Assembly: GCA_021785515.1 (NCBI GenBank)
Contig: JAJYEX010000003.1
Location: 1-64,000, forward strand
DNA length: 64,000 nt
Reading direction: 5' to 3'
Source: Pseudomonadota bacterium
Lineage (GTDB): Bacteria; Pseudomonadota; Gammaproteobacteria; Acidiferrobacterales; UBA6901
Below the pieces are notes generated by a model, which saw only the letters and a program-made list of their open reading frames with translations, did not search any database and was not told the origin of the DNA. The translations under genes and the position numbers were made by a program. This document shows, piece by piece, positions 10,958 through 54,418 of the stretch (position 1 is the stretch's first letter; the number at the start of each line of letters is the position of its first letter).

Positions 10958-11377
10958 ATGGATTCCACACCAGAACAGTCGCCGCAGAACTTATACCTCG
11001 ATCACGAGGGCAAGACGGTGGTCATCGTGATGACCAGCGGGCCGACCACGCCCCACCGGTGCGCTACACCGTTCTATCTGGGCGCGCTGCTCGCGTCCAT
11101 GGACGCCGAGGTGAGCATTTTCTTCACGATGGAGGGGGTCAACCTGGTGAAGCGGGGGGTGCCCGAGACGCTCACGGCCATGCCCGGTGGCAAGCGCATC
11201 ATCGAGTTCATCCGGGATGCCAAGGCGGCCGGCGCCAAGCTCTATCTGTGCTCGCCGGCGTTGCCCGGCTATGCGATCGACCCGAAATCCGACGTCATCG
11301 CGGAGGTGGACGAGATTTCGAGCGGCGGCGTGCTGGCGGACATGATCCTGTCTTCCGACAAGGTATTGTTTTTCTGA
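10958..11377 (+). CDS. dsrE3: DsrE3-like sulfurtransferase
   Basis: Small DsrE-superfamily protein of the kind called DsrE3 in sHdr loci, where it is believed to pass sulfane sulfur between TusA and other carriers. The 139-residue product begins, after about 19 residues, with TVVIVMTSGPTTPHRCATPF, contains VSIFFTMEGVNLVKRG, and has a conserved cysteine in KLYLCSPALPG (Cys98), the position of the sulfur-binding cysteine in related proteins; Cys35 is additional. It lies between the two lbpA genes and ends just before a strong hairpin. Confidence 0.88.
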   Translation: MDSTPEQSPQNLYLDHEGKTVVIVMTSGPTTPHRCATPFYLGALLASMDAEVSIFFTMEGVNLVKRGVPETLTAMPGGKRIIEFIRDAKAAGAKLYLCSPALPGYAIDPKSDVIAEVDEISSGGVLADMILSSDKVLFF

Positions 11378-11382
11378 GTTTG

Positions 11383-11412
11383 GCGCGGCGGGATTGATCC
11401 CGGCCGCGCTTT
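11383..11412 (+). terminator. Strong hairpin between dsrE3 and lbpA2
   Basis: GCGCGGC-GGGAT (11383-11394) pairs with ATCCC-G-GCCGCGC (11397-11409), a 12-pair GC-rich stem with one bulged G and a two-base loop, followed by TTT. It begins six bases after the dsrE3 stop. The T-run is short, so it is more likely a partial terminator or mRNA 3' stabiliser inside the operon. An AT-rich TATATAAC (11418-11425) just beyond could be the -10 box of a separate lbpA2 promoter. Confidence 0.5.
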
Positions 11413-11472
11413 AGGGATATATAACGGATTTCTTGTGCGGTTCAACTTTTTTGCAGCATTGGAGGAGTGACA

Positions 11473-11910
11473 ATGGGCGCAGTGCGCGGATGCAACATCC
11501 CGGAGGGTCTGTCCTATAACGTCGAAAACAATGCCTGGGCACGCAAGGAGAGCGACGGGACAGTCACGGTCGGCGTGACGTCCTACGCCTGCTCGCTCGC
11601 CGGCGAGATCGTGTCCTACACGCCCAAGAAGGTGGGCAAGTCCATCGAGAAAGACAAGTCCTGCGCGACCGTCGAATCGGGGAAGTGGGTCGGCCCGGTG
11701 AAAACCCCGGTTGCGGGCGAGGTGGTGGCGGTCAACGATGCGGTGTCGGCCAAGCCAGGCCTGATCAACCGCGACCCCTATGGCGAGGGCTGGGTCATCC
11801 GTATCAAGCCCACGAACTGGGATGGGGACTCGGCTGCTCTGCAGCAGGGGGCGGCAGCGCTCAGCGCCTTCGAGACCAAGATGCAGGCGGACGGCTTCAA
11901 GGGCTGCTAG
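11473..11910 (+). CDS. lbpA2: Lipoate-binding protein LbpA2 (GcvH-like)
   Basis: Second lipoyl carrier of the locus. The 145-residue product has TVESGKWVGPVKTPV with lysine at residue 71, the same position as in LbpA1, then LINRDPYGEGWVIRIKP, typical of GcvH-like folds. The ATG at 11473 has GGAGGAGTGA just upstream; another ATG six bases earlier would disrupt that spacing. It carries more lysines around the hairpin than LbpA1 (PKKVGKSIEKDKS). Sulfur oxidisers with two lbpA genes are known, so the pair is not new, but it implies two carrier roles or partners. Confidence 0.94.
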   Translation: MGAVRGCNIPEGLSYNVENNAWARKESDGTVTVGVTSYACSLAGEIVSYTPKKVGKSIEKDKSCATVESGKWVGPVKTPVAGEVVAVNDAVSAKPGLINRDPYGEGWVIRIKPTNWDGDSAALQQGAAALSAFETKMQADGFKGC

Positions 11911-12007
11911 CCGCCCGGCGACACTAAGGCTGCACCTTGGGGCTGCAGACCGGCGGCGCCAGGCAGCGGGGCGGCTTCGAGCGGCGGATCACGGGGGCAA
12001 GCGGCAG

Positions 12008-13180
12008 ATGAATGAATGGCTCGATGTGGTGGCGCAAGTGGAGGCCATGGAGGGGCTGGCGCTTGATGTCGGACTGGTGGACGCCCTGCAGCACAGCGCC
12101 CCGCGGGCGGCGGACGGGGCGGATGCTGCGATCAACTTCTACACGCCGACGTTCAAATCGTTCCAGACTTCGGAGATCTCGGGCTGCGGTCGCAACGCCT
12201 GGCCGGCGGTGTCCATCACCGGCGGCGACTGCAAGCTCAAGTGTGATCACTGCAAGGCCAAGATCCTGGAGCCCATGATTGCGGCGCGCAGTCCCGAGGC
12301 GCTGTGGAACGTGGTCAGCGGGATCGTGGCCGACGGGGCCGGTGGCATGCTGCTCACCGGCGGGTCGAATCACCGCAACGAAGTCGAATACGGTCCGTTC
12401 TACCCGACCATCCGCCGCATCAAGGACAGCTATCCCGGGTTCCGGATTGCGGTGCATACAGCGCTGGTCGATGCGCCCGGGGCGCGGGCGATGACCGACG
12501 CCGGGATCGACGTCGCCATGATGGATGTCATCGGATCCCAGGACACGATCACCCAGGTCTATCACCTGAAGCGCACGGTGGACGATTTCGAGCGCACCCT
12601 CGAGACGCTGGTCGCCACCGGCATGAAAGTCGTGCCGCACATCGTCATCGGGCTGCACTATGGACGGCTGCTCGGGGAGCGCAATGCGCTGGAGATCATC
12701 GCGCGCCACCGCCCCGCGGCCGTGGTGCTGGTGGTAGTGATGCCGTTCTACGCGCCGGCCCACCGGCCATTTGTCACGCCCGACGCGGCCGAGGTGGGCC
12801 GGTTCTTCATGCAGGCGCGCGCGGTCCTGGGGGATATTCCGCTGCTGCTCGGGTGCGCCCGGCCGAGCGGGCAGGTCAAGACGCTCATCGATACCTATGC
12901 CGTGATGGCCGGCATGAACGGCATGGCTCACCCCTCGGAGGGCGTGGTGGAACTTGCCGCCCGCCTGGGACGCAAGGTGCGGGTCACGCCCGCGTGCTGT
13001 TCGATTGCGGTGGGCGATGAGGTCATGGCGGGTGCTGCACGCGATACCGGTCTGGAGCTTGATCTCGATGCGATCGTCGCGCACGAACGGGAACGGCGCC
13101 TGGCGCTGTCGCGCCGTGATGTGTTCGGGTCGATCAAGGTGGTGGGCGGCGGCGGTCCGGGAGCCGGTGGCTGCGCATGA
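12008..13180 (+). CDS. lipS1: Radical SAM lipoate synthase component LipS1
   Basis: LipS1 works with LipS2 to insert two sulfur atoms into octanoyl groups bound to LbpA, replacing LipA in sHdr organisms. The 390-residue product has the radical SAM motif C75-x3-C79-x2-C82 in GGDCKLKCDHCKAK, an MLLTGGSNH glycine-rich strand, and a C-terminal region with paired cysteines (TPACCSIAVGDE) and a final Gly-rich GGGGPGAGGCA. The start at 12008 follows lbpA2 by about 100 bases; the longer open frame upstream is low-complexity. Its last bases overlap the next gene as ATGA. The name follows known sHdr gene order. Confidence 0.9.
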   Translation: MNEWLDVVAQVEAMEGLALDVGLVDALQHSAPRAADGADAAINFYTPTFKSFQTSEISGCGRNAWPAVSITGGDCKLKCDHCKAKILEPMIAARSPEALWNVVSGIVADGAGGMLLTGGSNHRNEVEYGPFYPTIRRIKDSYPGFRIAVHTALVDAPGARAMTDAGIDVAMMDVIGSQDTITQVYHLKRTVDDFERTLETLVATGMKVVPHIVIGLHYGRLLGERNALEIIARHRPAAVVLVVVMPFYAPAHRPFVTPDAAEVGRFFMQARAVLGDIPLLLGCARPSGQVKTLIDTYAVMAGMNGMAHPSEGVVELAARLGRKVRVTPACCSIAVGDEVMAGAARDTGLELDLDAIVAHERERRLALSRRDVFGSIKVVGGGGPGAGGCA

Positions 13181-14292
13181 GCAGCGGACGGCCACGCTGG
13201 CGGGTGATCGACTTCGGGCCGCGCACGGCGGCCGAGTATGTCGCCGCCAACCGGGCCCTGCTCGAGGCGCGCCAGCAGGGGCTGGCGCCGAACACGCTTT
13301 CGTTTCTGAGTTTTCGCGAACCGGCAGCGCTGGTGGGTTTCCATCAGAGCGTCGATCAGGAGCTGCGGCGTGACTACTGTGCGGCGCACGGTATCACCAT
13401 CCAGCGGCGCGTGAGCGGTGGCGGGGCGCTCTACGTCGACCCCACCGTGATCGGCTGGGAGCTTTACCTGGACCGCCGGAGCGCCGGTTCCAACGACATG
13501 CTCGAGATCGCGCGCCGCATCTGCGAGGCGGCGGCGCGCGGCATCCGCGCCCTGGGCGTGGATGCGCGATTCCGCCCCCGCAACGACATCGAGGTCGGCG
13601 GGCGCAAGATCGCGGGCACCGGCGGCACTTATGACGGGGACGTGCTCCTGTACCATGGCTCCCTGCTCATTGATTTCGACGTCGAACGCATGCTGCGGGT
13701 CCTGCGGATTCCGGCCGAGAAACTGCAGGACAAGGCCATTGCCTCGGCGCGCGAGCGCGTAGCCAATCTGCGGGAGCTGCTGGGCGAGGCGCCGTCCATG
13801 GAGCGCGTGCTGGCCGTCATGGTGGAGGCATTCTCGGAGGAATTCGGTGTGGACTTCGAGCGCGCCGCGGGCTTGAGCCCGCCCGAGAACGAGAAATTCC
13901 GCGCCGCCCTGGCCGAGGTGCAAACCGAGGAGTGGGTGGAACAGGTCAGCCGGCCGGTGAGCGAGACGCCGACGCTGGACGGGGTGCATCGTTCGGCCGG
14001 TGGCCTCATCCGGGTGTCGCTTCTGGTGGATGTCGTGCGCGGGCGGATCAAGCAGGCGTGGTTTACCGGGGATTTCTTCGTCAATCCGCGACGCATGATT
14101 GCCGACCTTGAGGCGGCGCTGCGGGATTCGCCGCTTCCGGAGTTCCGGGCCACGGTGGACCGGTTTTTCGGGGGCTATCCGGCGGAGATGCTGCTGCTGC
14201 GCCGCGAGGATTTCACTGCGGCGCTCGACAACGCGCTTCAGGCTCTCGTCCCGCGCCCGGAGCTTCGTGGCGCAGGCGCCGCCCCGGGCTGA
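13177..14292 (+). CDS. slpl: sHdr-type lipoate-protein ligase, sLpl(AB)
   Basis: Attaches octanoate or lipoate to the LbpA lysine. The 371-residue product is a biotin/lipoate ligase fold: RRVSGGGALYVDPT holds the acyl-adenylate, and Lys144 in GGRKIAGTGG is the catalytic lysine. The last third matches an LplB-type accessory domain, so the ligase is a natural AB fusion. It overlaps lipS1 by four bases (ATGA), a sign of tight coupling, and precedes the FAD oxidoreductase by three bases. Confidence 0.9.
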   Translation: MSSGRPRWRVIDFGPRTAAEYVAANRALLEARQQGLAPNTLSFLSFREPAALVGFHQSVDQELRRDYCAAHGITIQRRVSGGGALYVDPTVIGWELYLDRRSAGSNDMLEIARRICEAAARGIRALGVDARFRPRNDIEVGGRKIAGTGGTYDGDVLLYHGSLLIDFDVERMLRVLRIPAEKLQDKAIASARERVANLRELLGEAPSMERVLAVMVEAFSEEFGVDFERAAGLSPPENEKFRAALAEVQTEEWVEQVSRPVSETPTLDGVHRSAGGLIRVSLLVDVVRGRIKQAWFTGDFFVNPRRMIADLEAALRDSPLPEFRATVDRFFGGYPAEMLLLRREDFTAALDNALQALVPRPELRGAGAAPG

Positions 14293-27526: not shown

Positions 27527-29113
27527 TCAGTGCGGAACATAGCGGGGCAGGATCGGAGCGACTTCTTTGGCAAATGTGCGCAACGACCGGTCTGCTGACG
27601 CAATTGATCCGCCGGGCGGAATAAAGGTGACAAGGCGCACCAGAGCCCCGTCCGTACGGTGCCGGGTCAGACCGTCCCAGAACAGATACCATTTCACCGC
27701 ATATTCATTCGTGAGCAGTCGCCCCTGCTCCTGGAACCAGTAGTACACCAGTTCGTTTATGTTGCCCTTTTTGATGATTGCGCGGTTGACCCACAACGGC
27801 ATGCCATACATCGTGACTCCGGGAATCCGGACTTGCGCCAGCTTCTTGATTTCCCACCCGCCGCCTGGGATGCAAGTGCGCGGGGTATGAGCGGCATCGC
27901 CTGGCTTCTGAGTATTGTAGTAGGACACGTAAAAATTTACCGTACCTGCTCCGGGTGCGACATAGTCTGCGAGAATGTAGTCCGAGAGCTTGAGCTGGTT
28001 GAGAAAAACGTCTTGTATGCGATGGGTTTTGCCGACCCAAGGTCCGATCCTAAGCGGAAATTCGGAGAAGTTCAGCCGTTGCGGCACAATGTCCTGGTGC
28101 TGTCCGATCGTGATCGATGCGCCCGCTGTAGCTACCAGCATCACAAACAGCGGATACTGGAAACGGATCGCGGAACGCGGCCGGCTGCTCGCGTTGGCAG
28201 GGATCGATTCGCCGAAGTCCAGGCGGAATGTCTCCGACAGACCGTGCCCGGAAGAAGATCCGATGCGGGAAAGAATCGCCATTTCCCCGATTATCATCGC
28301 AATACAGATCATGAATACGAGCCAGCCTTCGAACATATGCCGAAATCCCTCGGCCTGTCTGATTCCCGCGTAATCTACCAGTACACCGATCACCCCTATC
28401 CGGACGCTGTTCATGATGACCGTTATCGGGATGCACGACAGGAAAACGACGACCTTCTTCCATAAGGATGCCCGGAAGAGATACGCGGCAATGAAGGAGA
28501 GGCTCATCAGAGGAAACAGATAGCGAAGGCCGCTGCACGCCCGTGCCACCTGAAGCTTGTAAGTGCCAAGATCGATGACGTTTCCAGATAGGTATACCGC
28601 GACACCCAGTTGGCGGATCACCCAGACGCCGAGCTGTGACGACAGGAGCTGCAACCGGGCCGACATGCCGGCGTATACAACCCCCGGGAGTGGGATCATG
28701 AAGAAAAGGAAGAACAACGCCACCCAGATCAGGCGAAATGCCTTCCAGCCCATTACGGACAGGGCGAGCCCCATCAGCACCACGACCATTCCGTACTGCA
28801 CTACCGGGAAAACCGTGGCCAGTGTCCCGGCAAGGTACAGCCCGAGCCCCAGGGCAACCACCACCAGTCCCCAAGGCGATCCCACGAACGGGATGCGCGC
28901 AAGCTCCCATCTGCGCTGCCAGATGTGGTACAGAGTAATGACTGGGATCAGATAGCCGTAGCTGTATGCCTTCCAGACATTCCAGTGATGGATCATGTCC
29001 TCCAGGCTGTGCCGGAAGGTCCAGAAGACGATGACCAGCGCCACGATAACTGGTGCCCAGAACAGCGGGGTGGTACGCCAGTAGGATGTAGAATTTTCAG
29101 TGTTGCCCGTCAT
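27527..29113 (-). CDS. xrtD: XrtD-type exosortase fused to an EpsI domain
   Basis: Exosortases are membrane transpeptidase-like enzymes that cut and anchor proteins bearing PEP-CTERM-like tails. The 528-residue product has about eight membrane segments and the catalytic set Cys193 (ARACSGLRYLFP), Arg238 (MNSVRIG) and His259 (FRHMFEGW). From about residue 305 an EpsI domain follows, with its TCIPGGGWEI motif. The NSVRIG and HMFEGW forms match the XrtD (VPLPA-CTERM) group better than XrtA, which has NGLRAY and HLIYGW. No sorting-tail substrate is encoded here. Confidence 0.88.
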   Translation of the reverse strand: MTGNTENSTSYWRTTPLFWAPVIVALVIVFWTFRHSLEDMIHHWNVWKAYSYGYLIPVITLYHIWQRRWELARIPFVGSPWGLVVVALGLGLYLAGTLATVFPVVQYGMVVVLMGLALSVMGWKAFRLIWVALFFLFFMIPLPGVVYAGMSARLQLLSSQLGVWVIRQLGVAVYLSGNVIDLGTYKLQVARACSGLRYLFPLMSLSFIAAYLFRASLWKKVVVFLSCIPITVIMNSVRIGVIGVLVDYAGIRQAEGFRHMFEGWLVFMICIAMIIGEMAILSRIGSSSGHGLSETFRLDFGESIPANASSRPRSAIRFQYPLFVMLVATAGASITIGQHQDIVPQRLNFSEFPLRIGPWVGKTHRIQDVFLNQLKLSDYILADYVAPGAGTVNFYVSYYNTQKPGDAAHTPRTCIPGGGWEIKKLAQVRIPGVTMYGMPLWVNRAIIKKGNINELVYYWFQEQGRLLTNEYAVKWYLFWDGLTRHRTDGALVRLVTFIPPGGSIASADRSLRTFAKEVAPILPRYVPH

Positions 29114-41764: not shown

Positions 41765-44032
41765 TTAAGGACCCACAGAGACATGCAAAGAATCAGGTGA
41801 GATACCGTTGATCTGCACGTACACCGGCCATGCTGCCAGTGTCACATCACCGGCATGCACGGCGTCCGGTATGGGATCCCCCATCATGTTTAGAACGCGA
41901 ACGTGAGAGGTCTGCAGGTTTAGCGTTCCTTGCTGCTTCTTCCAGTTATAGGCAAGTATGAGGGACCCGTTCGGGGTCTGGAACACATAGGCCCGGTCGC
42001 CTCCGGGGTCGGTCATGGTGCGGCGATACTGTGCAGATCCAAGCAGCACCGTCATCGCGTTGTATGCGGGGATTTGTGGCGTAGGTTGCCAGTTTGCATC
42101 GAACAGTCCCCAGCCTCGTTCAGGATAGGCAATCGTCGGCAGGTTTTGGGCTAAGCCGAACCAGAATACCCGGCGTACTCCGGAAGCCATCGCTGCCGCG
42201 TATACCATTGGGATCTGTCTCGCGACGTTCCAGGGCGTTGTCGTTTTCTGGTTGTGTCCGACAAGCTGACGTTTGGCGCGAAAGTCATTCAGGTGAGATC
42301 CGGGTTCAGCCCATGGGATCCCCATTTCTGTGTCCCAGATGGGCATGGTGCGAAGCTCGTGTTCCTTAAGGGAACGGCGCATGCGGTGTACAAATCCGCC
42401 TTGAAGATTACGCCGATCGTAGTCTCGACCAAAGAATTGAAATGCGTGGGCCCCATGATAGGAGAGGACATCGATCTCGGTGAGCGCACCGTCTGCGGCA
42501 AGTTGACGCAGGAAAGATGGAATGCGTCGAGGCCCTGGAGCAAAATCGCCGTCGCGGCCCGCTATCGTGCTGGAAAATCCGACCAGGTGGGACGAGGGTG
42601 CGTAGCGCCGCTGCTCGGTACGGGTCAGCTGCACGATCTTCAGAAAATCCGGTTCTGTGAACTTCCAGCCTGGCTCATTCCATATTTCATAGTAAGGAAT
42701 GCGGTTTCCGAAATGGCGAAAGACCGTCTCCAGGTACGCTTGGTAGCGATCGAGATCGAGGTAATCGCGCCCCTGTCCGGCAACCTGCCTGCGTAGTGGG
42801 CGTGGTCCGATGCCCGTGAGGAGGTTGAATCCCGGGCCTTCGGGTGCACGGCTGCGCATCCACGCCGGAATCCGGTCCGGTGTGTTGGATCCGAGCTCAA
42901 ACATCGGCGACAAGCCATTCAGGTCGATCTCTCGTAACGCGCCTTCCGCCTGAGAAAAATTCCAGGTCTGCCCATTCGGGCTGAGGAGATCCGGCGACAG
43001 CAGCGAAAATATCCGCACGCTCCCTATGCCCATATTCCGCACCAGCCCGTAGAGATCCCGAGGACGCAGAAAGGCGCTGATAAAGGTTTGCAGGCCAGGC
43101 TCTTCCATACACAGGCCAAACAGCCTGTGGTTCGCGGACGATCCGGGGTCCGGAGTGATGACCGCGTAGCTGCGGGTGGTACTGGCAGCTTGATCGCCTG
43201 CATGGGGGACGGTGACGGAATCGACCTGGAAATAACCGCGTTCCGCAGTCGCCAAGGGGATGTCCGCCTTCCAGATTCCGTAACCGAGCGAATGTGCCGC
43301 CGCTGTTCCATGAGCAACCTCGATCCGCTGAAGCGGATTTGTGATCCGGAAACGGATCTCTTCAGGAACCGGCCCTCGGCCACGCAGTATGAAGCGCGTA
43401 CGGCTGCCGACAGCGTAAACCCCAAGTGCTTGATCGAGCTGCGGCTCCATCCAGAGATTGGGATGCCAGGGCTTCGTGCCCGCGGTGGTCGGGCCTTGCA
43501 GGCTCAGGTCATCGACTAGGACGGCGTCCTTCGAAGATAGCCAGATGTACACAAGGTAGGGCCGTGGCCGTCCTGGTGCGGCGCGAAATGTTGCGTCGGT
43601 ATGGTGTTCGCCCGGCTTAATGAGCAAGGTTTTCGAAAATACCCGTTCGTCCCGTGTGTTTGCCTGGATTGTCAGCGCCACTGGCGCAGATGAGCGGGTG
43701 AGCAGCCCGATTCGGTAGGTCCGGCCGGAAACGAGTGACATTACCTGCGGCGTTATACGGTATCCTCCATCGGGAAGCGCCGGAAGATAAAGTGAGTAGG
43801 CGCCGTCCAGCGCGGAGCGATGATCCAAACGCGCCAGTGGCGCCACCGTTTCGGCCGGTAGGTACCTGGGGTAACGATGCACTTGAATATCGACCATTCC
43901 AAGCTCGAAGCTTCCCCCAACGATATGCTGAGGCATCCCGTTGCCCCCGGTTTCCGCGGCGCCCGCCAGCGTGGCGTATCCAAATGTGACAGATAGAACA
44001 GCAAAGCAGATTCCCAATGTGCGCCCTAGCAT
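41765..44032 (-). CDS. Secreted glycoside hydrolase, GH39/PslG-like
   Basis: The 755-residue product has a signal peptide (cleaved near AGAAE), an N-terminal beta-sandwich, carbohydrate-binding-like part to about residue 300, and a TIM-barrel part with acid/base Glu in YYEIWNEPGW and a likely nucleophile Glu in IWDTEMG, the arrangement of clan A hydrolases such as GH39 and the biofilm hydrolase PslG. Hydrolases of this type in polysaccharide operons trim the product or clear it from the periplasm. It overlaps the downstream-lying glycosyltransferase gene by seven bases. Confidence 0.8.
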   Translation of the reverse strand: MLGRTLGICFAVLSVTFGYATLAGAAETGGNGMPQHIVGGSFELGMVDIQVHRYPRYLPAETVAPLARLDHRSALDGAYSLYLPALPDGGYRITPQVMSLVSGRTYRIGLLTRSSAPVALTIQANTRDERVFSKTLLIKPGEHHTDATFRAAPGRPRPYLVYIWLSSKDAVLVDDLSLQGPTTAGTKPWHPNLWMEPQLDQALGVYAVGSRTRFILRGRGPVPEEIRFRITNPLQRIEVAHGTAAAHSLGYGIWKADIPLATAERGYFQVDSVTVPHAGDQAASTTRSYAVITPDPGSSANHRLFGLCMEEPGLQTFISAFLRPRDLYGLVRNMGIGSVRIFSLLSPDLLSPNGQTWNFSQAEGALREIDLNGLSPMFELGSNTPDRIPAWMRSRAPEGPGFNLLTGIGPRPLRRQVAGQGRDYLDLDRYQAYLETVFRHFGNRIPYYEIWNEPGWKFTEPDFLKIVQLTRTEQRRYAPSSHLVGFSSTIAGRDGDFAPGPRRIPSFLRQLAADGALTEIDVLSYHGAHAFQFFGRDYDRRNLQGGFVHRMRRSLKEHELRTMPIWDTEMGIPWAEPGSHLNDFRAKRQLVGHNQKTTTPWNVARQIPMVYAAAMASGVRRVFWFGLAQNLPTIAYPERGWGLFDANWQPTPQIPAYNAMTVLLGSAQYRRTMTDPGGDRAYVFQTPNGSLILAYNWKKQQGTLNLQTSHVRVLNMMGDPIPDAVHAGDVTLAAWPVYVQINGISPDSLHVSVGP

Positions 44033-45120
44033 CTCAACACCGCCTCATAGTGCTGAACCATGGTGTCGACCGAAAATCTGGTGGCCACGCGAGCCCGTGC
44101 GGCCGCACTGAATGCCCGCCTTGTTTCTGGATCCGTCAGCCGGCGTATCGCGACCGTCAAAGCCATGCTGTCGCCGGGCGGACAGAGAAATCCGCATTCC
44201 CCGTGAACAATCATCTCGGATGCTCCGCCTATATCGGACAGAATTACGGGCAAGCCAGTGGCCATTGCTTCAAGCGCTGCGTTGGAAAACGTTTCCACCG
44301 CAAGCGATGGAAGAACGAAAAGATCCATGGAGCTGAGAAGCGGTCTGACATCCCCGGATCGTCCGGTGAACTGAACCGCTTCCCCAAGCCCCATGCTGTG
44401 CACCAGTCCACGCACCGTGGCAAGTTGTGGGCCGTCGCCCACTAGCAAAAGCCGGACCGCAAGACCTTCCTGACGCAGCCGTGCGATGGCGTCCAGCAAT
44501 ACCCGATGGCCTTTTTCCGGACGAAATTGCGCAACCATCCCGAGCGTCAATTCCCTGCCTGACCGCGGCGGAGTCCCAGTCAGATCGGCTGGGGTGTAAT
44601 AGTCTAAATCAACACCGTTGTAAATCACTGTGGTCCGGTCAGCGTGCAAGCGATAGCGCCGGACCCACGCCCGTTGCTGCGCAAAGCTGCCGAAGACCAC
44701 CGTGTCAGCGTGCCGCATCAGAGGCGCGTACAGCAGCATCTGTAAGCGCTCATATGAGGAATGAAAGTCAGTCGTGTTGACGCTTACAACGTGGCGGAGC
44801 GGTAGAGAAAGCTTCCGTCCTGCTAGTCGTGTGTACAGCATGGGAAACTGGTTAACACTCCAAACGAGTGCGATGCGTCGCCGCTCAAGGTAATCGTGTA
44901 GCCGGCCCAGTACGTCACGATCGACACGTTTTCGCCGCGCAAGCTGCAGAATTTCCACTTCGGCTGCCACCATTGGCAGCAGGTCCTGGGGGTCTCCGAG
45001 CACACCCAGGTGCACTTCCCACCCTCTTCGGGCAAGACGGTTCGCCATGGAAACGGTTTTCTTCTCCGACCCCCCGACACAGAGGCTTGAGAGAACGAAC
45101 ATGCAGCGGTTTGCATTCAT
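44026..45120 (-). CDS. Glycosyltransferase family 4
   Basis: The 364-residue product starts CMFVLSSLCVGGSEKKTVSMANRLARRGWEVHL, a typical GT4 opening, and has MVAQFRPEKGHRVLLDAIARL, LVGDGPQLATVRGLV and LPSLAVETFSNAALEAMATGLPVILSDIGG with the EX7E acidic pair. It overlaps the polymerase/ligase gene by four bases and the hydrolase gene by seven, so the three are translationally linked. Confidence 0.92.
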   Translation of the reverse strand: MNANRCMFVLSSLCVGGSEKKTVSMANRLARRGWEVHLGVLGDPQDLLPMVAAEVEILQLARRKRVDRDVLGRLHDYLERRRIALVWSVNQFPMLYTRLAGRKLSLPLRHVVSVNTTDFHSSYERLQMLLYAPLMRHADTVVFGSFAQQRAWVRRYRLHADRTTVIYNGVDLDYYTPADLTGTPPRSGRELTLGMVAQFRPEKGHRVLLDAIARLRQEGLAVRLLLVGDGPQLATVRGLVHSMGLGEAVQFTGRSGDVRPLLSSMDLFVLPSLAVETFSNAALEAMATGLPVILSDIGGASEMIVHGECGFLCPPGDSMALTVAIRRLTDPETRRAFSAAARARVATRFSVDTMVQHYEAVLRC

Positions 45121-46475
45121 CGAGCCCGACGAAACTGAGGCGTAGCAGGTGCCGCGTTACGCGTGGAAGCCATAACTGGTGTGTTTGCGCTGGCCCGCGC
45201 CTCTGAGCGTTCGCGCACGTAACGCGCATAGCCGGCAAGGATGCCAAATGTAAACGACCAGATTATGTAGACGTTAATTGGAACTGAAAGCATAAATGTC
45301 CACAACACGATGAACATGGCTGACAGAATGCATTGATACAGAAGCCGGTCATGGGGGCGCACTGTTCTGCGAAAAAAGCGAAATACGTCCCGACCGAGCC
45401 AAGCCGTCAAAAACAGGCCCGCGAATCCGACTTCGACCCACATTTTTAGAAACATGTTATGGGTGGCGATCACTGTTCCCAGAATCTGGTAGATGTGGGC
45501 GTGATATGTGCCCCAGCCGAAGCCCACGAACGCGGCGAGTGGATGCAGTGTAAATAGACGCAGAATTGCTGCCCATACGAAAGTGCGACCAGAGGAGATG
45601 ATGTCAATAGTCGAAAAGCCCTCGCTGCGCAGCAGCTGGTTCGTGTGGTGGTTGCCGGCGAAGAGCCTCATCCGGTCAAGCGCATCCTTAAGAAAATGAC
45701 CGTGAGTGACCAGGGCGAACGTGAGAACTCCGACAGCGCCGAGCGCAAATACCCGAAGAAAGAACGCGTACTGTCGGGTCCAGATCATCAACAGGAAAAA
45801 TTCTGCCGCCAGTGCCAGCATTGCGCCCCGGGAACCGGAAAGGGCAATCCCTGCAATGGAAGTCAGTATCAGGAACAGATACAGCAGACGCGCCCCCTGC
45901 AAACGGGAACGCACGTAAAGATAATACGTCAGCGGTATGAACATGGCCAGCGAATATGCCCCTTGGTTGGAGTAGCTCGCGTAGCTGGCAAAACGGGTGT
46001 GGCCCTGTGACAGCACATGCTGGTAGAAGGGATTTATGCCGGTAACGTAATAGCTGAGCGCCAGAATGTTGAGTAGACCGAAGGTGATGACAACGGCGCG
46101 CAGCGGGCGCAGACCGGCTTCGGGCCGCGCGGTGAGCAGGTAGGCAATTCCGTACAGCAGGAACGGGTCGAACAGTTCGTTCTTGTAGTCAACCAGCATG
46201 TTGAAGGCCACAAGGTGAGCACCGTCTGCCAGCACCGGTGCGTAAAGCATGCTGAGTGGGGCCAGTACGAGCAGCACCGCCATAGCTTTGCCCCCGGGAA
46301 GGCTTTTCAGCAGCGACAGACGGTTCATGTAGAAAATAAGAATCGAAACGCAGGCCAGGTAGAGGACCACGTTCTTGATGCTCAGTCCGGTAATGGCGCT
46401 AGGCGCGACGTACAATTTTGCAACCACGATCATAGCCAGGACGCCGAAAAACAGGATCTGATTCAGGGGGCGCAT
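45117..46475 (-). CDS. O-antigen ligase/polymerase family membrane protein (Wzy-like)
   Basis: The 452-residue product has about ten to twelve membrane helices and a large periplasmic loop. The RGAMLALAAEFFLLMIW and later GFGWGTYHAHIYQ regions resemble the Wzy_C/O-antigen ligase family. In a Wzx/Wzy-type pathway it would polymerise repeat units in the periplasm. The flippase gene lies directly upstream and chain-length and export genes further up, giving the full set. Polymerase versus ligase cannot be told from sequence alone. Confidence 0.82.
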   Translation of the reverse strand: MRPLNQILFFGVLAMIVVAKLYVAPSAITGLSIKNVVLYLACVSILIFYMNRLSLLKSLPGGKAMAVLLVLAPLSMLYAPVLADGAHLVAFNMLVDYKNELFDPFLLYGIAYLLTARPEAGLRPLRAVVITFGLLNILALSYYVTGINPFYQHVLSQGHTRFASYASYSNQGAYSLAMFIPLTYYLYVRSRLQGARLLYLFLILTSIAGIALSGSRGAMLALAAEFFLLMIWTRQYAFFLRVFALGAVGVLTFALVTHGHFLKDALDRMRLFAGNHHTNQLLRSEGFSTIDIISSGRTFVWAAILRLFTLHPLAAFVGFGWGTYHAHIYQILGTVIATHNMFLKMWVEVGFAGLFLTAWLGRDVFRFFRRTVRPHDRLLYQCILSAMFIVLWTFMLSVPINVYIIWSFTFGILAGYARYVRERSEARASANTPVMASTRNAAPATPQFRRAR

Positions 46476-46563: not shown

Positions 46564-48024
46564 TCATGGCGACTCTTTCCGTCGCAGAATCAGAGTCGAA
46601 ATCTCGCCCACCGTCACCGCACGAGACAGGTGAACTAATAGGCCAAATGTTGCCACTGCTGCCATCGACCAAAACGCAAGGGTCAAAAGCCCATTTTTCG
46701 GTACTATGGCGAGCACTGCAGCGGTAAATGTTCCTGCAGTCACGATTTTGACGAAAGCGGACAGAAAGTCACCTGACGGACGCAGAGCGAGCGCCTTCCG
46801 CAGCAGCATCTGGACGATTACAACGGTAACGGCCTGGGCGACAGCTGCACCCGGGAGTCCATACGAATGTGTCAGCAGCAAAGTAAGCGGAACATCCACG
46901 GCCAGCGCTGTGACGCTGGAACCGAGGATTAGCAAAGGACGCTCCTCAAGTCGCGCGGCGACCCAGGTGAGTTCGTTTAGACCGTACCCAAGTCCGAAAA
47001 TGCCAAGCGCCGTTAGAATAAGGAGCATGTGTTGACCGAGGGCCAGAACTATCTGGGGAAACCACAGTTGCAATAGCGGCCCAAGTACGTCAGCGAGCAT
47101 GACCACGCCCAGGCACGCCAGAACGAGGAAGTACAGCTCGCAGCGCTCCCAGACGAACGCCGCGCGTGCACGACTGCCGGTATCCCAGAGACGGGGCAGA
47201 TGGGAATTGAGATAGACCAGAAGTGGCTCGTCGGTAGCCGCAAGGAAGCGGGCAAGGACGTAGGCGATATTAAATGCTCCAAGCGCTCGTGCACCCAGGA
47301 AATACGGCACTACGAGACGCGGCACCGCAGCGAGGTTGCCCTCCGTTATCGCCATAGCCGCGAATGGCCAGGAGAAACGCAAGTACGTCCTGATGACCCG
47401 CCAGTTGAATCGTGGGCGCCCAACTTCCAGACCGAGAATCAGACACATGACTGCAACCACCGTCCACGAGGTTGCAGTCATGACAACTATGCCCGGGGTC
47501 AGGGTGCGCCAGACATAGATGGCTGCGGCAAAGGCCAGATACGGAAGGATGTCCTTCAAGAACCGGAAAAAGGCAGCCTGTTTCAGCCGCCGACGGCTGT
47601 TGAGGTAAATCTGCAAGAGCGATCCGATGCTTTCGGATACAATCAATGGGGCCGCCACGGCAATGGCCAGTTTAAATTTTCCGCCCAAAAACAGGTGGCT
47701 GAGTGTTCCGGCCGCAAGAAACAGCGTCGTACAGAGCGCCAGTGCAATGATGGTGCTGAAAATGATCGGTGACCAGAAGATTTCCCGTAGCCGCTCCGTC
47801 TCATGTTCATCCACCGATGAGCCATAGCGCAGCACTGCCTGGCCGAGCGCGAGTTGCGCAAAACCGGTCAGGATAAGTACGTTGGTCGTGACCTGGACGT
47901 AGGCGCCGTAGGTGGCAAGCCCTAGGGCATGCAGGATGATCGGGATCAGAAAGATGCCCTTCAGCCTGTTGGTCCAGCTGAGCACCACGATCGCCAGAGA
48001 GTCCGTGGCCTTCTTCGTCAGCAT
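46564..48024 (-). CDS. Polysaccharide flippase (Wzx, MATE-like exporter family)
   Basis: The 486-residue product has about twelve to fourteen hydrophobic segments, beginning AIVVLSWTNRLKGIFLIPIILHALGLATYGAYVQV, the standard opening of Wzx-type flippases that turn lipid-linked repeat units to the periplasmic side. It lies between a methyltransferase gene and the polymerase gene. Small gaps on both sides (about 46 and 88 bases) suggest co-transcription. Confidence 0.88.
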   Translation of the reverse strand: MLTKKATDSLAIVVLSWTNRLKGIFLIPIILHALGLATYGAYVQVTTNVLILTGFAQLALGQAVLRYGSSVDEHETERLREIFWSPIIFSTIIALALCTTLFLAAGTLSHLFLGGKFKLAIAVAAPLIVSESIGSLLQIYLNSRRRLKQAAFFRFLKDILPYLAFAAAIYVWRTLTPGIVVMTATSWTVVAVMCLILGLEVGRPRFNWRVIRTYLRFSWPFAAMAITEGNLAAVPRLVVPYFLGARALGAFNIAYVLARFLAATDEPLLVYLNSHLPRLWDTGSRARAAFVWERCELYFLVLACLGVVMLADVLGPLLQLWFPQIVLALGQHMLLILTALGIFGLGYGLNELTWVAARLEERPLLILGSSVTALAVDVPLTLLLTHSYGLPGAAVAQAVTVVIVQMLLRKALALRPSGDFLSAFVKIVTAGTFTAAVLAIVPKNGLLTLAFWSMAAVATFGLLVHLSRAVTVGEISTLILRRKESP

Positions 48025-48070: not shown

Positions 48071-48823
48071 TCAGGCCGGCCGTTCCACGACAACCGTGCT
48101 TCCCTTCACGTTACCCCGCTCACTGAATAACGTCTTTGTCGGGGCGTCATACCAGGTCATGGCGCCGTAGCGCGCGGCGTTGTTGTTCAGTCCCAGGTAT
48201 AGCCGCCCCCCCGGGCGCAAATGCGAAAGTGCATCATCCAGAAAGAATTCCCATTCCGCCCGAGACCACTCATCGGACCGTTTGTGGTTGTTGAAGCACA
48301 CCAGAAACGCCGATATGAGATCAAATGTTCCGTCGACTGCCAGCGCCTCATATGGGCGTATCAGCAATGATTGTTTTTTGCACCGATGAGCATAAAACAT
48401 CTGATCATAAACCAGTCTTTCGATGTCTGAAAAGAAATTCTCCGGGATGTCGATGCCTAGAGCCTCGTGTCCAAAATGCCGACACACAGCCAGGAAATAG
48501 CCTGGTCCGCACCCAAGATCAAGGATACGTCGGCTGGGTCCGGCGTGTAGACCGGCCCGAGCCGCCTGGACAATCGCGCTCCGTAGCCAGAAGGCGTGAT
48601 CCGGATACTTGGCCGCACTCTTAGGATCGCGCTCGTAGTCAGATCGTACTTGCGTGCGTAGCCGATCCAGGGCTTTAGCATCGATTTCGTGCAAAATTGA
48701 GCGATAGGTCTTTTCAAGCGACTTGGCGCCGAATCCGGAACAGCCGATCAGTTGTCGCTCCCACCTGAGGTGCTCGTATACGCGTCGCGGAAGAATGTAT
48801 TTGGCCAAGTCACGCGCCGCCAT
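48071..48823 (-). CDS. Class I SAM-dependent methyltransferase
   Basis: The product has the SAM motif RRILDLGCGPGYFLAVCRHFGHEALGIDIPENF and LRPGGRLYLGLNNN, and probably methylates a sugar or lipid-linked intermediate. The ATG at 48823 has GGAGGAA nine bases upstream and overlaps the end of the preceding glycosyltransferase gene by 14 bases; an ATG at 48859 would extend the overlap to 50. From 48823 the length is 250 residues, normal for the family. Confidence 0.87.
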   Translation of the reverse strand: MAARDLAKYILPRRVYEHLRWERQLIGCSGFGAKSLEKTYRSILHEIDAKALDRLRTQVRSDYERDPKSAAKYPDHAFWLRSAIVQAARAGLHAGPSRRILDLGCGPGYFLAVCRHFGHEALGIDIPENFFSDIERLVYDQMFYAHRCKKQSLLIRPYEALAVDGTFDLISAFLVCFNNHKRSDEWSRAEWEFFLDDALSHLRPGGRLYLGLNNNAARYGAMTWYDAPTKTLFSERGNVKGSTVVVERPA

Positions 48824-50102
48824 TTTTGGGGTTCCTCCGTCGTATGTGCATCTCAGCATCCGCGATTAGTTGCCCGTACAGCGCGCGGTAGCGTTCCATC
48901 ATTGATGCAAACTGATCGTAGCGTAGACGTCCGGAAACGGCACCAGCCGCAAGCCGTTCACGAAGATCGCCGGTCTCTGCCATACAGCGGATGTGTTTGG
49001 CCAAAGCCTCTGCATTGCCTTTTGGAAAAAGAAGGCCGTTACGCCCATTTTCGATCATGCCTGAAATGACCGTGATATCACTTCCGATCGCCGGCAGCCC
49101 ATTGAATAGTGCTTCAGAGAGCGCGAGCGGACGCGCCTCGGCCAGTGATGGAATGATGAAAACATCCGAGAGCGCGTAGTATTCATGTACGCGTTCATGT
49201 GGAACCTTGCCAGTAAACTGCACCCGATCTGCAAGTCCGGAATCGGTGATCCGGCCGCGCAACGGCTCTAAAAGCCCTCCGTCGCCAACAAACAAAACGT
49301 AAATCCGGTGTTGTCGCATAAATTCAGCGCCCAGTCGCTCGAGTGCGGCAACCAGAACGTCGGGACCTTTGAAGGTTTTTACGGTACCGAGGCACAGAAA
49401 TACGAGATCATCGGGCGGAACATGACGCAAAGCCCTTAGCTCCGCGCGGCTGTGTTTCGGGCGCAGAAATGGCAGGTAGGAATGGATTGTTTCGACCGGG
49501 TAACCGTACCGGCGCATATACTCATCAGAGATCATGTCCGATACTCCGATACGTGCCGCCGCGTGGCGGAAATAGACCTTATGCAGCCAGTCGGGTTTCG
49601 CCGGAAGCATGTGGCCGCTCGAAATCCGCAGGACATACGGAATGCCGTACCGTCGTGCCAGCGCCATTACATGGTAGTACTGAAAGAGGTGCCCACTCGA
49701 ATAGGGGATATGGATCAGGCCAATCCGGTCACGGTTACGCCGTATGAAGTCCACGTGGTGCGCCAGAGTAAACACGGTTTGCAGACGGCCGAAAGGACTG
49801 CGGATATCGCGGACACGGATCCGAAATTCGGGAAAACGCCGGTCGCACTCGGCCAGCACCGCCAACGGAAAATGTTTGCTGAGCGTTTTGGCAAAGTAAT
49901 AGTGGAAGATCTCAATGCCACCCGTGTGGCAGGGATAGAGTACGTTGGTCAGAAGCACGATCCAGTTTCGGCCATGCCGCCTTGTCGCGCCCTCCGGGTT
50001 CACATGGGCAGCTTCCCGGTTGGCCACGTTAGGCTGTTGTGCCCGGCCTAGTCCAGCGATCAGCGTGGACGGACGGCTTGGCCTGCGCACCCCGCTCACC
50101 AT
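48810..50102 (-). CDS. Glycosyltransferase family 4
   Basis: The product is 430 residues; the family part begins after about 45 polar residues (WIVLLTNVLYPCHTGGIEIFHYYFAKTLSKH). It has FLCLGTVKTFKGPDVLVAALERL, FVGDGGLLEPLRGRI and IPSLAEARPLALSEALFNGLPAIGSDI. The assigned ATG overlaps the UDP-sulfoquinovose synthase gene by seven bases; a later start is possible. Direct coupling to that gene makes this the best candidate for adding the sulfonated sugar, which is inference. Confidence 0.9.
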   Translation of the reverse strand: MVSGVRRPSRPSTLIAGLGRAQQPNVANREAAHVNPEGATRRHGRNWIVLLTNVLYPCHTGGIEIFHYYFAKTLSKHFPLAVLAECDRRFPEFRIRVRDIRSPFGRLQTVFTLAHHVDFIRRNRDRIGLIHIPYSSGHLFQYYHVMALARRYGIPYVLRISSGHMLPAKPDWLHKVYFRHAAARIGVSDMISDEYMRRYGYPVETIHSYLPFLRPKHSRAELRALRHVPPDDLVFLCLGTVKTFKGPDVLVAALERLGAEFMRQHRIYVLFVGDGGLLEPLRGRITDSGLADRVQFTGKVPHERVHEYYALSDVFIIPSLAEARPLALSEALFNGLPAIGSDITVISGMIENGRNGLLFPKGNAEALAKHIRCMAETGDLRERLAAGAVSGRLRYDQFASMMERYRALYGQLIADAEMHIRRRNPKNGGA

Positions 50103-51244
50103 CGGGCATTTTTGCCCATGAACCTGGACGCGTCGATATCATCCTGATGATTTCGGGCCAGAACGAGCATCTCCATGAGTACCTCATCGGTCAGAAGATG
50201 AGGTCGAAGGCCGAGGGCATCGAAGGCAGCGTGCGCGGGGTGGTAATAATGACTTTCCGATTCCATCCGCGGATTGGGAACCGACCGGATTTCAACCTTA
50301 AGGTCGAGCGCGCTTGCAGCATTCGCCACCTGTTCCGCCAATTCACGAACTGAAAACGTCTGGGTGAACTGGTTCATCACACGCAGTTCGCCGGCTGATG
50401 GCGGTGTGTCGATCGCAAGGCGCACGCACTGCAAGGTGTCAAGCAGGTTAAGATAACCGCGCGTCTGTCCGCCCTCTCCGTAGACGGTCAGTGGATACCC
50501 GGCGGCCGCCTGAACGACAAACCGGTTCAAAACCGTACCAAACAGTTCATCATAGTTCAGAAAAGGCAGAAGCCGGTGTTCCTGGCGGTTTTCCGGGGTA
50601 AAAACGCCGTAAACCGGCCCCTGCATGAGATCTGTGACACGCAATTTCCAGGTGCGTACGTAAAACCAGATCAGATCAGTATCCTGGATCTTGGTCGTGT
50701 GATACAGCGACCCAGCAGCGCGTGGGTACAAGAAGCGGTCCCGTCGGCCCTTGTGTTCGATTTCCAGCCAGCCTTCTTCGATATCGATATTCGGGGTGCC
50801 ATATTCACCCATGGTTCCGAGTTTTACGATATGGGTCTGCGGGCAGAATTCCCGCACCGCAAAGATTACGTTCGCAGTTACAGTGAGATTGTTCTGCAGC
50901 GTCAGCATCGCGGCTCGACGGTTCAGCATTGAGTACGGGGCGGAAGGCTGCTCAGCGTAATGTACTATGCACTCCGGCTGTGACGATGCCATGACAGATG
51001 AGATGAATTCCCATTCACGCAGATCGCCAACCTCATGCCGGATCGTGTACCCAGAAAGCTTCTGCCAAAGTTTCACGCGCTCCGGCAGTGGCGGTACGGG
51101 GTAGAGAGGTGCAACATTCTCCTCCAAGCACATCTTGCGCCGCAGGTAATTGTCCGCCACCGTCACCTCGTGGCCGCGTGCCGAAAGATCCATCGCAGTG
51201 GGCCAGCCGAGATAACCATCACCGCCGAGAATCAGAATTTTCAC
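50096..51244 (-). CDS. UDP-sulfoquinovose synthase, SQD1/SqdB/Agl3-like
   Basis: This enzyme makes UDP-sulfoquinovose from UDP-glucose and sulfite. The product of about 382 residues shares long signature runs with SQD1: GGDGYLGWPTAMDLS, LGTMGEYGTPNIDIEEG, NRFVVQAAAGYPLTVYGEGG, TRGYLNLLDTLQCV and NQFTQTFSV. Counted from the GTG at 51244, the catalytic set is Thr144, Tyr181, His182 and Lys185, almost the same spacing as Thr145, Tyr182 and Lys186 of plant SQD1. The GTG has GGAGGG eight bases upstream; an ATG at 51271 is the alternative. Setting inside a glycosyltransferase operon, not beside sqdX-type lipid genes, points to a polysaccharide product. Confidence 0.88.
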   Translation of the reverse strand: MKILILGGDGYLGWPTAMDLSARGHEVTVADNYLRRKMCLEENVAPLYPVPPLPERVKLWQKLSGYTIRHEVGDLREWEFISSVMASSQPECIVHYAEQPSAPYSMLNRRAAMLTLQNNLTVTANVIFAVREFCPQTHIVKLGTMGEYGTPNIDIEEGWLEIEHKGRRDRFLYPRAAGSLYHTTKIQDTDLIWFYVRTWKLRVTDLMQGPVYGVFTPENRQEHRLLPFLNYDELFGTVLNRFVVQAAAGYPLTVYGEGGQTRGYLNLLDTLQCVRLAIDTPPSAGELRVMNQFTQTFSVRELAEQVANAASALDLKVEIRSVPNPRMESESHYYHPAHAAFDALGLRPHLLTDEVLMEMLVLARNHQDDIDASRFMGKNARW

Positions 51245-51328: not shown

Positions 51329-52399
51329 TTAGCGGCCATCGGCCGCCTCCGACCGTGCTGCCTCGTCAAGAATGCCAGAGGAAATCAGAAAGTCCTTGAT
51401 CTGTTCGATGCCCATGCAGTCCTCGGAAGACGAGATATAAGCCCTTTCTACGCCAGGATGAACCAGGTTCGGGTAGACGTGATCAACATGCTTGTACATG
51501 AAACGGTGCGCAGGAAGGGTCACAAACATGTCTTCAAGTTCCTGGGAGCGGTGGGTTTCCTCATCACTCATCAATTCCTCGTAGAGTTTTTCGCCTGGCT
51601 TTGAACCTATATAGGTCATTTTGATATCGGCGGGATCCCGTCCATAGCGCGGTGCCAGCAGCTCGATCATCGCCTGCGCAAGATCCAGAATTCTTACCAC
51701 AGGCATCTTGGTGATAAACACTTCACCGCCGCGTGCGAGCATCACCGCGCGGATCACGAGCGCGGCAGCTTCTGATACCGACATGATAAAGCGCGTCATG
51801 CGCTCGTCCGTGACCGTCAGTGCCTGGCCTTCGCGAATCTGTTTCGCAAAGATCGGCACTACGGAGCCGCGCGAACCCAGTACGTTTCCGAACCGGACGC
51901 TTGCAAGCACGGTGGAACCGTGCGAGCCGGTGATGTTAGCCGCCGTAATCAGCTTTTCACCCATCAATTTGGTCGTACCCATGACGCTCGTCGGGTTGAC
52001 CGCCTTGTCGGAACTCGTGAACAGTACGTTGGCCACGCCCGCCCGGCGCGCGGCATGAATAACGTTTTGCACCCCGTGAATGTTGGTCTGTACCGTGTCG
52101 AATGAATTGTATTCGGCGAGATAGACGTGCTTGTGCGCAGCAAGATGAAATACTGTGTGCGCGCCCACGAATACTTCCTCGAGTTTATCCCGGTCCCGCA
52201 CGTCCCCGAGGAATGCGCTTACGCGGCCGCCATTAGTGTAGCGTTGCCCCTGCAGGAATAGCGCCGATTCGTTGTTGTCGAGGATCCGGATTTCTGCCGG
52301 CTGGTGCTCGCGCAGCAGAACGTCCACGAGTTCAGATCCAACGGTACCCGAGGCGCCCGTCACCACGATGGTCTGGTTTTTGAAGTAGTCGCGATTCAC
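51329..52399 (-). CDS. Nucleotide-sugar 4,6-dehydratase, CapE/FlaA1-like short SDR
   Basis: The 356-residue product has the NAD motif VVTGASGTVGSELVDVL, and the active-site run FTSSDKAVNPTSVMGTTKLMGEK. Met stands where most SDRs have the catalytic Tyr, as in CapE-type inverting UDP-GlcNAc 4,6-dehydratases. It should give a keto-deoxy amino sugar precursor. The GTG at 52399 overlaps the stop of the upstream epimerase gene as GTGA, a clear coupling sign, and is preferred over the ATG at 52441. Confidence 0.85.
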   Translation of the reverse strand: MNRDYFKNQTIVVTGASGTVGSELVDVLLREHQPAEIRILDNNESALFLQGQRYTNGGRVSAFLGDVRDRDKLEEVFVGAHTVFHLAAHKHVYLAEYNSFDTVQTNIHGVQNVIHAARRAGVANVLFTSSDKAVNPTSVMGTTKLMGEKLITAANITGSHGSTVLASVRFGNVLGSRGSVVPIFAKQIREGQALTVTDERMTRFIMSVSEAAALVIRAVMLARGGEVFITKMPVVRILDLAQAMIELLAPRYGRDPADIKMTYIGSKPGEKLYEELMSDEETHRSQELEDMFVTLPAHRFMYKHVDHVYPNLVHPGVERAYISSSEDCMGIEQIKDFLISSGILDEAARSEAADGR

Positions 52400-53382
52400 A
52401 GCTTGGCCCCCACATGGTAGTTTTCTCGAAACCATGCCCACGTCTGCTCCAGGCCTTGGTGCAGTGACATCTTCGGCTCATAGCCGATCTGGCGGCGGGC
52501 TTTGGATATGTCGGAAAAGCTGCGGACGATTTCACCTTTACGCGCACCCACGTGCCGGATTTCCACCTGGATCCCGAGATCGCGTTCCACGACGCGACGC
52601 ACCTGTGCAGCGATCTCGTTGACCGTGCTTTCGTGAAATGTCGCGATCTGAAAGGTTTCGCCACCCGTGTCGGAATCAAGTGCCCCAAGGATGGCGGAGC
52701 ACAGATCGTCGATATAGATGAAATCCCGTGTCTGTTCGCCGTCCCCGTAAATAATAAGCGGTTCTCCTTCAAGCGCTGAACGGAAGAAACGGGCAACAAC
52801 GCTGCCTTTATGGGCCGATCCGGGACCATAGACATTCGAGAAGCGTAGAGCGGTGGTGCGGATTCCGAATGAGTGAAAGTATGCGCTGCAATATCCTTCC
52901 CCGGAAAGCTTTGATGCTCCATAGGGGGACATGGGGCGGGCCGGAAGACCTTCGTGCACCGGAGGCGTAGTTTCGCCCAGCGGGGCGCTTGAGGAGGCAA
53001 AAACGAACTGTCGTGTGCCCTGTTGCACGCAGGCTTGTAGCAAATTAAGCGTACCGAGCACGTTAGTCTCACAGTCGAACAGCGGTGATTCGATGCTTGG
53101 CATGACGCCGCTCTGGGCGGCGAGGTGCACGGTTGCCTGGGCCCCGGTGAGTGCTGCGGCACAGGCGGCCGGATCGCGGATATCTCCGATCATGAGGTCG
53201 ATTTTGGTGCTATCTGCAGGCCAGCCGGACGCCTGCTGAACGGTAGCCACGCGTGCGAGCTCGCCCTGTGTTCCGACAGAAAGATTGTCCAGAATCCGGA
53301 CACGGTCGCCACGATTCAGCAGAATTCGTGTCAGATTGCGGCCGATGAAACCGCAACCTCCGGTAATCGTAATCGATTTCAT
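52396..53382 (-). CDS. NAD-dependent sugar-nucleotide epimerase/dehydratase (GalE-like)
   Basis: The 328-residue product is an extended SDR: ITGGCGFIGRNLTRILLNRGDRVRILDN at the NAD site, DVRDPAACAAAL-type acid strand (here DIRDPAACAAAL), catalytic YGASKLSGEGY and RFSNVYGPGSAHKGSVV. It resembles UDP-glucose 4-epimerases and UDP-glucuronate epimerases; the substrate cannot be set by eye. It overlaps the dehydratase gene by four bases and follows the GT2 gene by 13. Confidence 0.88.
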   Translation of the reverse strand: MKSITITGGCGFIGRNLTRILLNRGDRVRILDNLSVGTQGELARVATVQQASGWPADSTKIDLMIGDIRDPAACAAALTGAQATVHLAAQSGVMPSIESPLFDCETNVLGTLNLLQACVQQGTRQFVFASSSAPLGETTPPVHEGLPARPMSPYGASKLSGEGYCSAYFHSFGIRTTALRFSNVYGPGSAHKGSVVARFFRSALEGEPLIIYGDGEQTRDFIYIDDLCSAILGALDSDTGGETFQIATFHESTVNEIAAQVRRVVERDLGIQVEIRHVGARKGEIVRSFSDISKARRQIGYEPKMSLHQGLEQTWAWFRENYHVGAKL

Positions 53383-53395: not shown

Positions 53396-54418
53396 TTAAG
53401 AATGGTGAATGGATGCAAGCTCGTTCTCAAGTCTGCGGCGGTCGCGGCGATAGAGCCAGTATCCAAGCGGATAGAGGAGGAGAAATTTCCACCGGGAGGG
53501 CACGTCCGCCATCTGACGTGACAATGGAATGGACGCGTGTAGCGAGAAGCGAACATAATTTGCATAGTACTTGATCATGAACTTGAGCGGGAAACGATAT
53601 GGGTAATCGAGAAGCTCTTTGTAGTATTGTGTTGTAGTCGGGGCGCCGTCGATCTGGTGTGCGAGGGCACGATCCGACAGTCCCTCCTGTTGGTACTCCT
53701 TTACGGTAATGCGCTCGTTTACATAGCGGGTAAGGTACCGGCGCCCGATCCGGTTCCAGATCAGCTGTTCGCCCACGAAGGCGCGCTGGTTTTCCGGAAA
53801 GGGAAATTCCCGCAGCACTTCCGTACGCATGATGCCTGCACGGTTTCCCGACATGCCGTAATATAGGCGGATCCCGACCGGATCGGAGTCTACTATGTCT
53901 TCGGCCGGGTGGTTTCCCTCGATTTTTCCAGACTCGAATTCCGATAGGCCGACGACCCCAGCATAGCGAATCTGCTGTTCCCCGGGAATTTCAGCCCAGC
54001 GCCGCATCAACCGCTCCAAGGCATCAGGACGGTACCAGTCGTCCGAGTCCAGTCCAGCCAGAAAAAACCCACGGGCCTCCTTCGCGCCACGGTTGATGGC
54101 TGTGTGCACGCCGCCATTGGGTTTACGAACATAGCGGATTGGGATGGATCCCTCAGCGCTCAGTTTCCGCACCGTTTCTTCGGTATTGTCCGTGGATCCA
54201 TCGTCAACCACCAGCCATTCGAAGTCCCGAAAGGTCTGTAACACAAGGGAACGATAGACGCGCTGGAGCAAGTGCGCACGATTGTAGGTCGCCGTGAAAA
54301 CCGTGATGGCGTACCGAAAGTCCTGACGGTTCAGGGCGGCCTCCCTTTTTAGCAGGTGGTCCATGGCATCGGATAGTGGCGATTTACGCACGCCACGTGG
54401 ATTCCCGGTTTCAGGCAT
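53396..54418 (-). CDS. Glycosyltransferase family 2
   Basis: GT-A enzyme, first gene of the long polysaccharide operon. The 340-residue product has ITVFTATYNRAHLLQRVYRSLVLQ, WLVVDDGSTDNTEE, the metal-binding GLDSDDWYRPDAL and HTAINRGAKEARG. The first 35 residues are polar and the real start may be an internal ATG (residue 19). About 890 bases without genes lie upstream, where a promoter for the whole operon is expected. Confidence 0.9.
   Translation of the reverse strand: MPETGNPRGVRKSPLSDAMDHLLKREAALNRQDFRYAITVFTATYNRAHLLQRVYRSLVLQTFRDFEWLVVDDGSTDNTEETVRKLSAEGSIPIRYVRKPNGGVHTAINRGAKEARGFFLAGLDSDDWYRPDALERLMRRWAEIPGEQQIRYAGVVGLSEFESGKIEGNHPAEDIVDSDPVGIRLYYGMSGNRAGIMRTEVLREFPFPENQRAFVGEQLIWNRIGRRYLTRYVNERITVKEYQQEGLSDRALAHQIDGAPTTTQYYKELLDYPYRFPLKFMIKYYANYVRFSLHASIPLSRQMADVPSRWKFLLLYPLGYWLYRRDRRRLENELASIHHS

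Follow-up and report, generated by a model that had tools for sequence, protein, structure and literature searches.

A proline-type SQD1-like enzyme is paired with a Pen-like dehydratase homologue in bacterial surface-polysaccharide loci

We analysed a stretch of 64,000 nucleotides (the window) and verified on its minus strand an open reading frame at 50096-51271, here called gene Q, which encodes 391 amino acids counted from the ATG. Q can start at ATG 51271 or at GTG 51244 ('VKILILGGDGYLGW'). The GTG, which the preliminary description had chosen, is the better start because most homologues begin there. Q is present in one copy in the host genome, which is 99.9% complete. Four other species of the host genus gave weak matches only, and Q, having no counterpart there, is therefore an accessory gene. 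A second gene of interest, D, lies 57 bp upstream of Q (Table 1).

Table 1. Positions and assignments of the features discussed in the window
Feature	Position	Strand	Remarks
Q: SQD1-family 'EQP' NDP-sugar enzyme, Pro for SQD1/Agl3 Arg101	50096..51244 (alternative ATG 51271)	-	Homology, fold, alignment, tree
D: Pen/PseB-like extended SDR (PF02719), SSDK...M...K active-site motif	51329..52441	-	Partner gene
E: NAD-dependent epimerase (UDP-hexose 4-epimerase-like)	52396..53382	-	Overlaps D
GT2 glycosyltransferase	53396..54418	-	
GT4 glycosyltransferase	48810..50102	-	Overlaps Q end; candidate transferase for the sugar
SAM methyltransferase	48071..48859	-	
Wzx-type flippase (PF13440)	46564..48024	-	
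Wzy/O-antigen ligase-like (PF04932)	45117..46475	-	
GT4 glycosyltransferase	44026..45120	-	
Exosortase XrtD (VPLPA-CTERM type)	27527..29113	-	Above curated cut-off; marks EPS locus type
sHdr-type cluster: Fer4/CCG subunits, flavoprotein, lipoate-binding GcvH-like protein, DsrE, radical SAM, lipoate ligase	4656..14292	+	Pfam domains in order

Past Q, the gene order runs from the GT4, whose frame overlaps that of Q by 7 bp, to the methyltransferase, Wzx and Wzy, so the GT4 overlap and the Wzx/Wzy context described earlier are borne out. The locus is of the XrtD/PEP-CTERM exopolysaccharide type. Of the 80 related loci, 31 have a homologue of the epimerase gene E close to Q. Two XrtA-type amidotransferases (33833-35740 and 38285-40153) and a heparinase-like protein (31873-33885) are also encoded within this polysaccharide locus. 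Searching the host genome for SqdD (GT8), without a positive control for the search, we obtained no match, and none adjoins Q. The polysaccharide rather than sulfolipid context proposed for Q thus held up.

Performing phmmer searches, we found that Q matches plant SQD1 with an E value of 4e-122 and 48.9% identity over 376 residues without gaps; besides SQD1, the search gave no further strong match. The predicted fold resembles 1i24/1qrr with a TM score of 0.86. The triad T153, Y190 and K194 of Q corresponds to T145, Y182 and K186 of SQD1, and its GxxGxxG motif reads G16-x2-G19-x2-G22. Q also shares with the SQD1/SqdB/Agl3 enzymes (EC 3.13.1.1) the GTMGEYGTPNIDIEEG and SxYHxxK motifs and, probably, the use of sulfite. 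The equivalents of His95, Met145, Glu147, Tyr148, Ser180 and Thr185, which were tested in Agl3, are kept in Q and in nearly the whole clade to which it belongs, and the equivalent of His183 is likewise conserved in Q. The SQD1 signatures and the Thr/Tyr/Lys triad reported in the preliminary description were therefore confirmed by homology search, alignment and predicted fold. Against NF041015, Q scores 419.5 bits (curated cut-off 575). Since only one of 14 control genomes passes, this cut-off is too narrow to decide membership, and the shortfall was dropped as counter-evidence. In the AlphaFold model of Q, loops 109-116, 154-169 and 179-188 fall below a pLDDT of 50. These are the active-site loops, and the model was therefore used for no inference on the Arg101 pocket.

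The Agl3 R101A mutant is inactive, and the R101A primer reads A-E-Q-[A]-S-A-P (PMC4388408), which places Arg101 of Agl3 at EQ-R-SAP. The Q sequence at this position is EQ-P-SAP. Proline occupies it in 88/88 clade members (Q and 87 relatives), while all 39 Arg-type sequences carry Arg; this is the sole column with one residue in 100% of the sequences on each side. All 80 nearest relatives of Q in genome_contigs have Pro as well, retrieved with scan patterns that left out the Arg101-equivalent residue. In a maximum-likelihood tree of 140 rows, the EQP clade with Q comprises 90 rows (89 Pro, one unread), on a branch of 0.62 with 100% support, given as aLRT only. The clade lies within the SQD1 family and adjoins a few Pro-type members that have no D, then Arg-type Chloroflexota and plant SQD1; Agl3 and cyanobacterial SqdB were left out of the tree. 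The tree suggested in the preliminary description thus places Q inside the SQD1 family, though apart from the rest, in a long-branched clade whose members come from polysaccharide loci.

Pro-type relatives without D were found in Chloroflexota, in some class relatives, in a haloarchaeon and in many viral contigs. Therefore, Pro at this position does not require D, and the idea that D solely substitutes for a dehydration step lost with Arg101 was weakened. The haloarchaeal protein (L107, Haladaptatus plasmid) reads AAQPSAPYS and its gene adjoins GT4 and wecB genes; haloarchaeal 'SqdB' annotations may be worth re-examining. In IMG/VR (viral_contigs L253-L332), at least 107 contigs encode phage- or virus-linked SQD1-family proteins. 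Of 80 such proteins, at least 51 have Pro where Agl3 has Arg101, under a search pattern that favoured Pro. None has D, and three have a CysH-like gene nearby.

Of the 77 loci with enough sequence, 65 have a D homologue immediately upstream of the Q homologue in the same orientation; they are distributed over Desulfobacterota, Pseudomonadota, Nitrospirota, Chloroflexota, Myxococcota and other phyla. An independent sample, 274 genomes of the host's class, gave the same picture. D (at least 292 bits, 10 genomes) adjoins a Pro-type gene in 10/10, and the Pro-type genes of at least 56% identity all have D (10/10). Below 292 bits the D scores drop to 231 bits or less, belonging to generic PseB-like proteins in other contexts. 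No D was found beside SQD1 relatives in the Arg-type loci examined. The alphaproteobacterial sqdB-sqdD-sqdC sulfolipid operons (L106, L109) encode a synthase homologous to Q (40-42% identity), but with Arg present, a GT8 transferase adjoining and no D. By gene neighbourhood, D is linked almost one-to-one to the EQP clade. We found no third universal member in the D-Q loci, where the neighbours are varied glycosyltransferases, Wzx, sulfotransferases, NeuB and LegC.

The best PDB match of D by sequence is Pen of Bacillus thuringiensis, a UDP-GlcNAc 5,6-dehydratase, at 44% identity (PseB, 38%), and Pen is also the best match by fold (TM 0.81/0.92). The DK pair is common to both. The D proteins examined carry [ST]SDK/STDK...M...K in place of the Pen-type [ST]DKx(n)Yx3K; Met at the catalytic Tyr position is known from PglF/WbpM (PMC8987622). 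D may thus act as a putative 5,6- or 4,6-dehydratase with Met in place of the catalytic Tyr of Pen. D also differs from Pen in context, the examined part of the window having no pseudaminic acid pathway. Pen converts UDP-GlcNAc to a 5,6-ene, and UDP-sulfoquinovose synthase without sulfite converts UDP-glucose to a 5,6-ene (PMC8987622). The product of Pen is therefore of the kind that the synthase gives without sulfite, which we count in favour of a route with two enzymes.

Q alone might be an ordinary UDP-sulfoquinovose synthase using UDP-glucose and sulfite, and D would then supply another sugar of the same polymer. We regard this as quite unlikely. The 49% identity to SQD1, the triad and the retained equivalents from His95 to Thr185 (His183 included) agree with it, as does the CysH linkage described below. 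However, the Arg that Agl3 requires is Pro in every clade member, the pairing with D is near-obligate across otherwise different loci and phyla, and D was never beside the Arg-type relatives examined. One surface-polysaccharide locus (G282:C14; L170 / L117) carries both types, an Arg-type gene and a Pro-type gene with D, 11 kb apart, which argues against redundancy and for different sugars. Pro in place of Arg101 throughout the clade, together with the tie to a D that no examined Arg-type relative has beside it, suggests that Q differs in substrate or product. The name 'UDP-sulfoquinovose synthase' given to Q in the preliminary description was therefore premature; the substitution of Arg101 and the clade-specific partner gene upstream, which ties Q to a Pen-like dehydratase, had been overlooked.

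As R101A abolishes Agl3 activity, an enzyme with Pro at this position might fail to sulfonate altogether. In that case Q and D together would serve a deoxy- or amino-sugar pathway, with Q as an epimerase, reductase or dehydratase. The loss of the essential Arg, the resemblance of D to UDP-GlcNAc 4,6- and 5,6-dehydratases and the LegC/PseC- and NeuB-type genes of a few cassettes are in line with such a role. The SQD1 active site is otherwise conserved, though, and the recruitment of a second-copy CysH would have no obvious reason unless sulfite is needed, and hence we judge a non-sulfonating Q unlikely.

We checked the cassettes for CysH (PAPS/APS-reductase family) and found it in or near 12 of 88 (L031, L041, L046, L047, L059, L073, L077, L080, L190 and L195, with divergent CysH-family genes immediately upstream of D in L192 and L194); the other 76 have none nearby. 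Of eight genomes tested, six have a further CysH elsewhere. Assuming one copy per 3.5 Mb, chance would place about 0.4 CysH genes in 80 loci, and the probability of eight or more is about 6e-9. The control loci were few: CysH was found in 0/16 generic PseB-like loci and in one of 28 Arg-type loci, where it is a fusion. In that case (L172 610-2658; G185:C53), a CysH (APS/PAPS reductase) is joined to an Arg-type SQD1-like enzyme in one frame of 683 codons. CysH was present in 0/27 desulfo/delta loci versus 8/53 others (Fisher P 0.046), as expected if such hosts make sulfite in energy metabolism. CysH-type enzymes, predicted to form sulfite, are thus recruited to some D-Q cassettes. The linkage could instead reflect general sulfate activation for O-sulfation of the polysaccharide rather than sulfite supply to Q, since sulfotransferase domains are present in some cassettes and L043 has a CysD-like gene. 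But CysH uses up APS/PAPS to form sulfite, the opposite of what a sulfotransferase needs, and the CysH-SQD1 fusion occurs in an Arg-type relative; we find this explanation very improbable. Judged from gene linkage, sulfite is the likely co-substrate of Q, in support of the sulfite use suggested before.

The host itself has neither PF01507 (CysH; positive in 14/14 controls) nor CysD that we could find in its genome. Its sHdr-LbpA-DsrE genes at 4.6-14.3 kb have the Pfam domain content of an sHdr system, with Hdr-like Fer4/CCG/flavoprotein subunits and a lipoate-binding protein. The preliminary description had called them neighbouring; the genes were verified by their domains, but lying about 36 kb from Q on the opposite strand, they are neighbours in a loose sense. 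Two DsrAB-like pairs are encoded elsewhere in the host (G000:C11 635666-637505 and G000:C18 44199-46061). With no PF01507 and with sHdr and two DsrAB-like pairs, sulfur oxidation is therefore the likely source of sulfite in this host, and the earlier suggestion to this effect is plausible.

We propose that Q and D form a nucleotide-sugar cassette of two enzymes whose product, a C6-sulfonated UDP-sugar, enters a surface polymer. We infer the sulfonation, the substrate and the product, and hold the balance for and against the proposal to be about even. By analogy with Pen, D would dehydrate a UDP-sugar (UDP-GlcNAc to the 5,6-ene, or possibly another UDP-hexose). The bound NAD+ of Q would convert this to the 4-keto-5,6-ene, and Q would then add sulfite at C6 and reduce C4, yielding the C6-sulfonated UDP-sugar. 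In this host, sulfur oxidation (sHdr, rDsr) would supply the sulfite, and a GT4 of the cassette would pass the sugar to the Wzx/Wzy-assembled surface polymer. UDP-GlcNAc is a candidate substrate because D resembles Pen, which is our sole ground for naming it. The product is probably other than plain sulfoquinovose. More tentatively, and with some doubt, the D-Q pair could represent an undescribed, cross-phylum route to a C6-sulfonated UDP-sugar distinct from sulfoquinovose, for example of the 6-sulfo-quinovosamine type from UDP-GlcNAc, for bacterial surface polysaccharides. On this view, some hosts would draw the sulfite from sulfur oxidation or sulfate reduction, and others would have a dedicated CysH.

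Sulfoquinovose is regarded as a sugar of phototroph sulfolipids and of one archaeal glycan. Agl3 of Sulfolobus acidocaldarius, which serves sulfoquinovose in the S-layer N-glycan, sets a precedent, its sulfosugar being part of a surface glycan and not of a lipid; unlike Q, it is archaeal, its Arg101 is present and essential, and no D partner has been described. Compared with SQD1/SqdB/Agl3 as a group, Q differs in its clade-wide Pro for Arg101, its polysaccharide-type rather than SqdD loci, its linkage to D and its separate long-branched clade. In the part of the literature covered, we found no paper linking a sulfosugar in bacterial exopolysaccharide to such genes. The hosts of D-Q cassettes include roseobacters and others besides sulfate reducers and sulfur oxidisers. 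The loss of Arg101 across the clade, the partner D and, in some relatives, a CysH suggest a widespread, undescribed sulfonated-sugar pathway in bacterial surface polymers. If the proposal is true, C-S bonded sugars would be common in bacterial surface polymers, D-Q would be a genetic marker for them and would offer a clean test of the role of Arg101 in the SQD1 mechanism, and such sugars would constitute an organosulfonate source outside photosynthesis.
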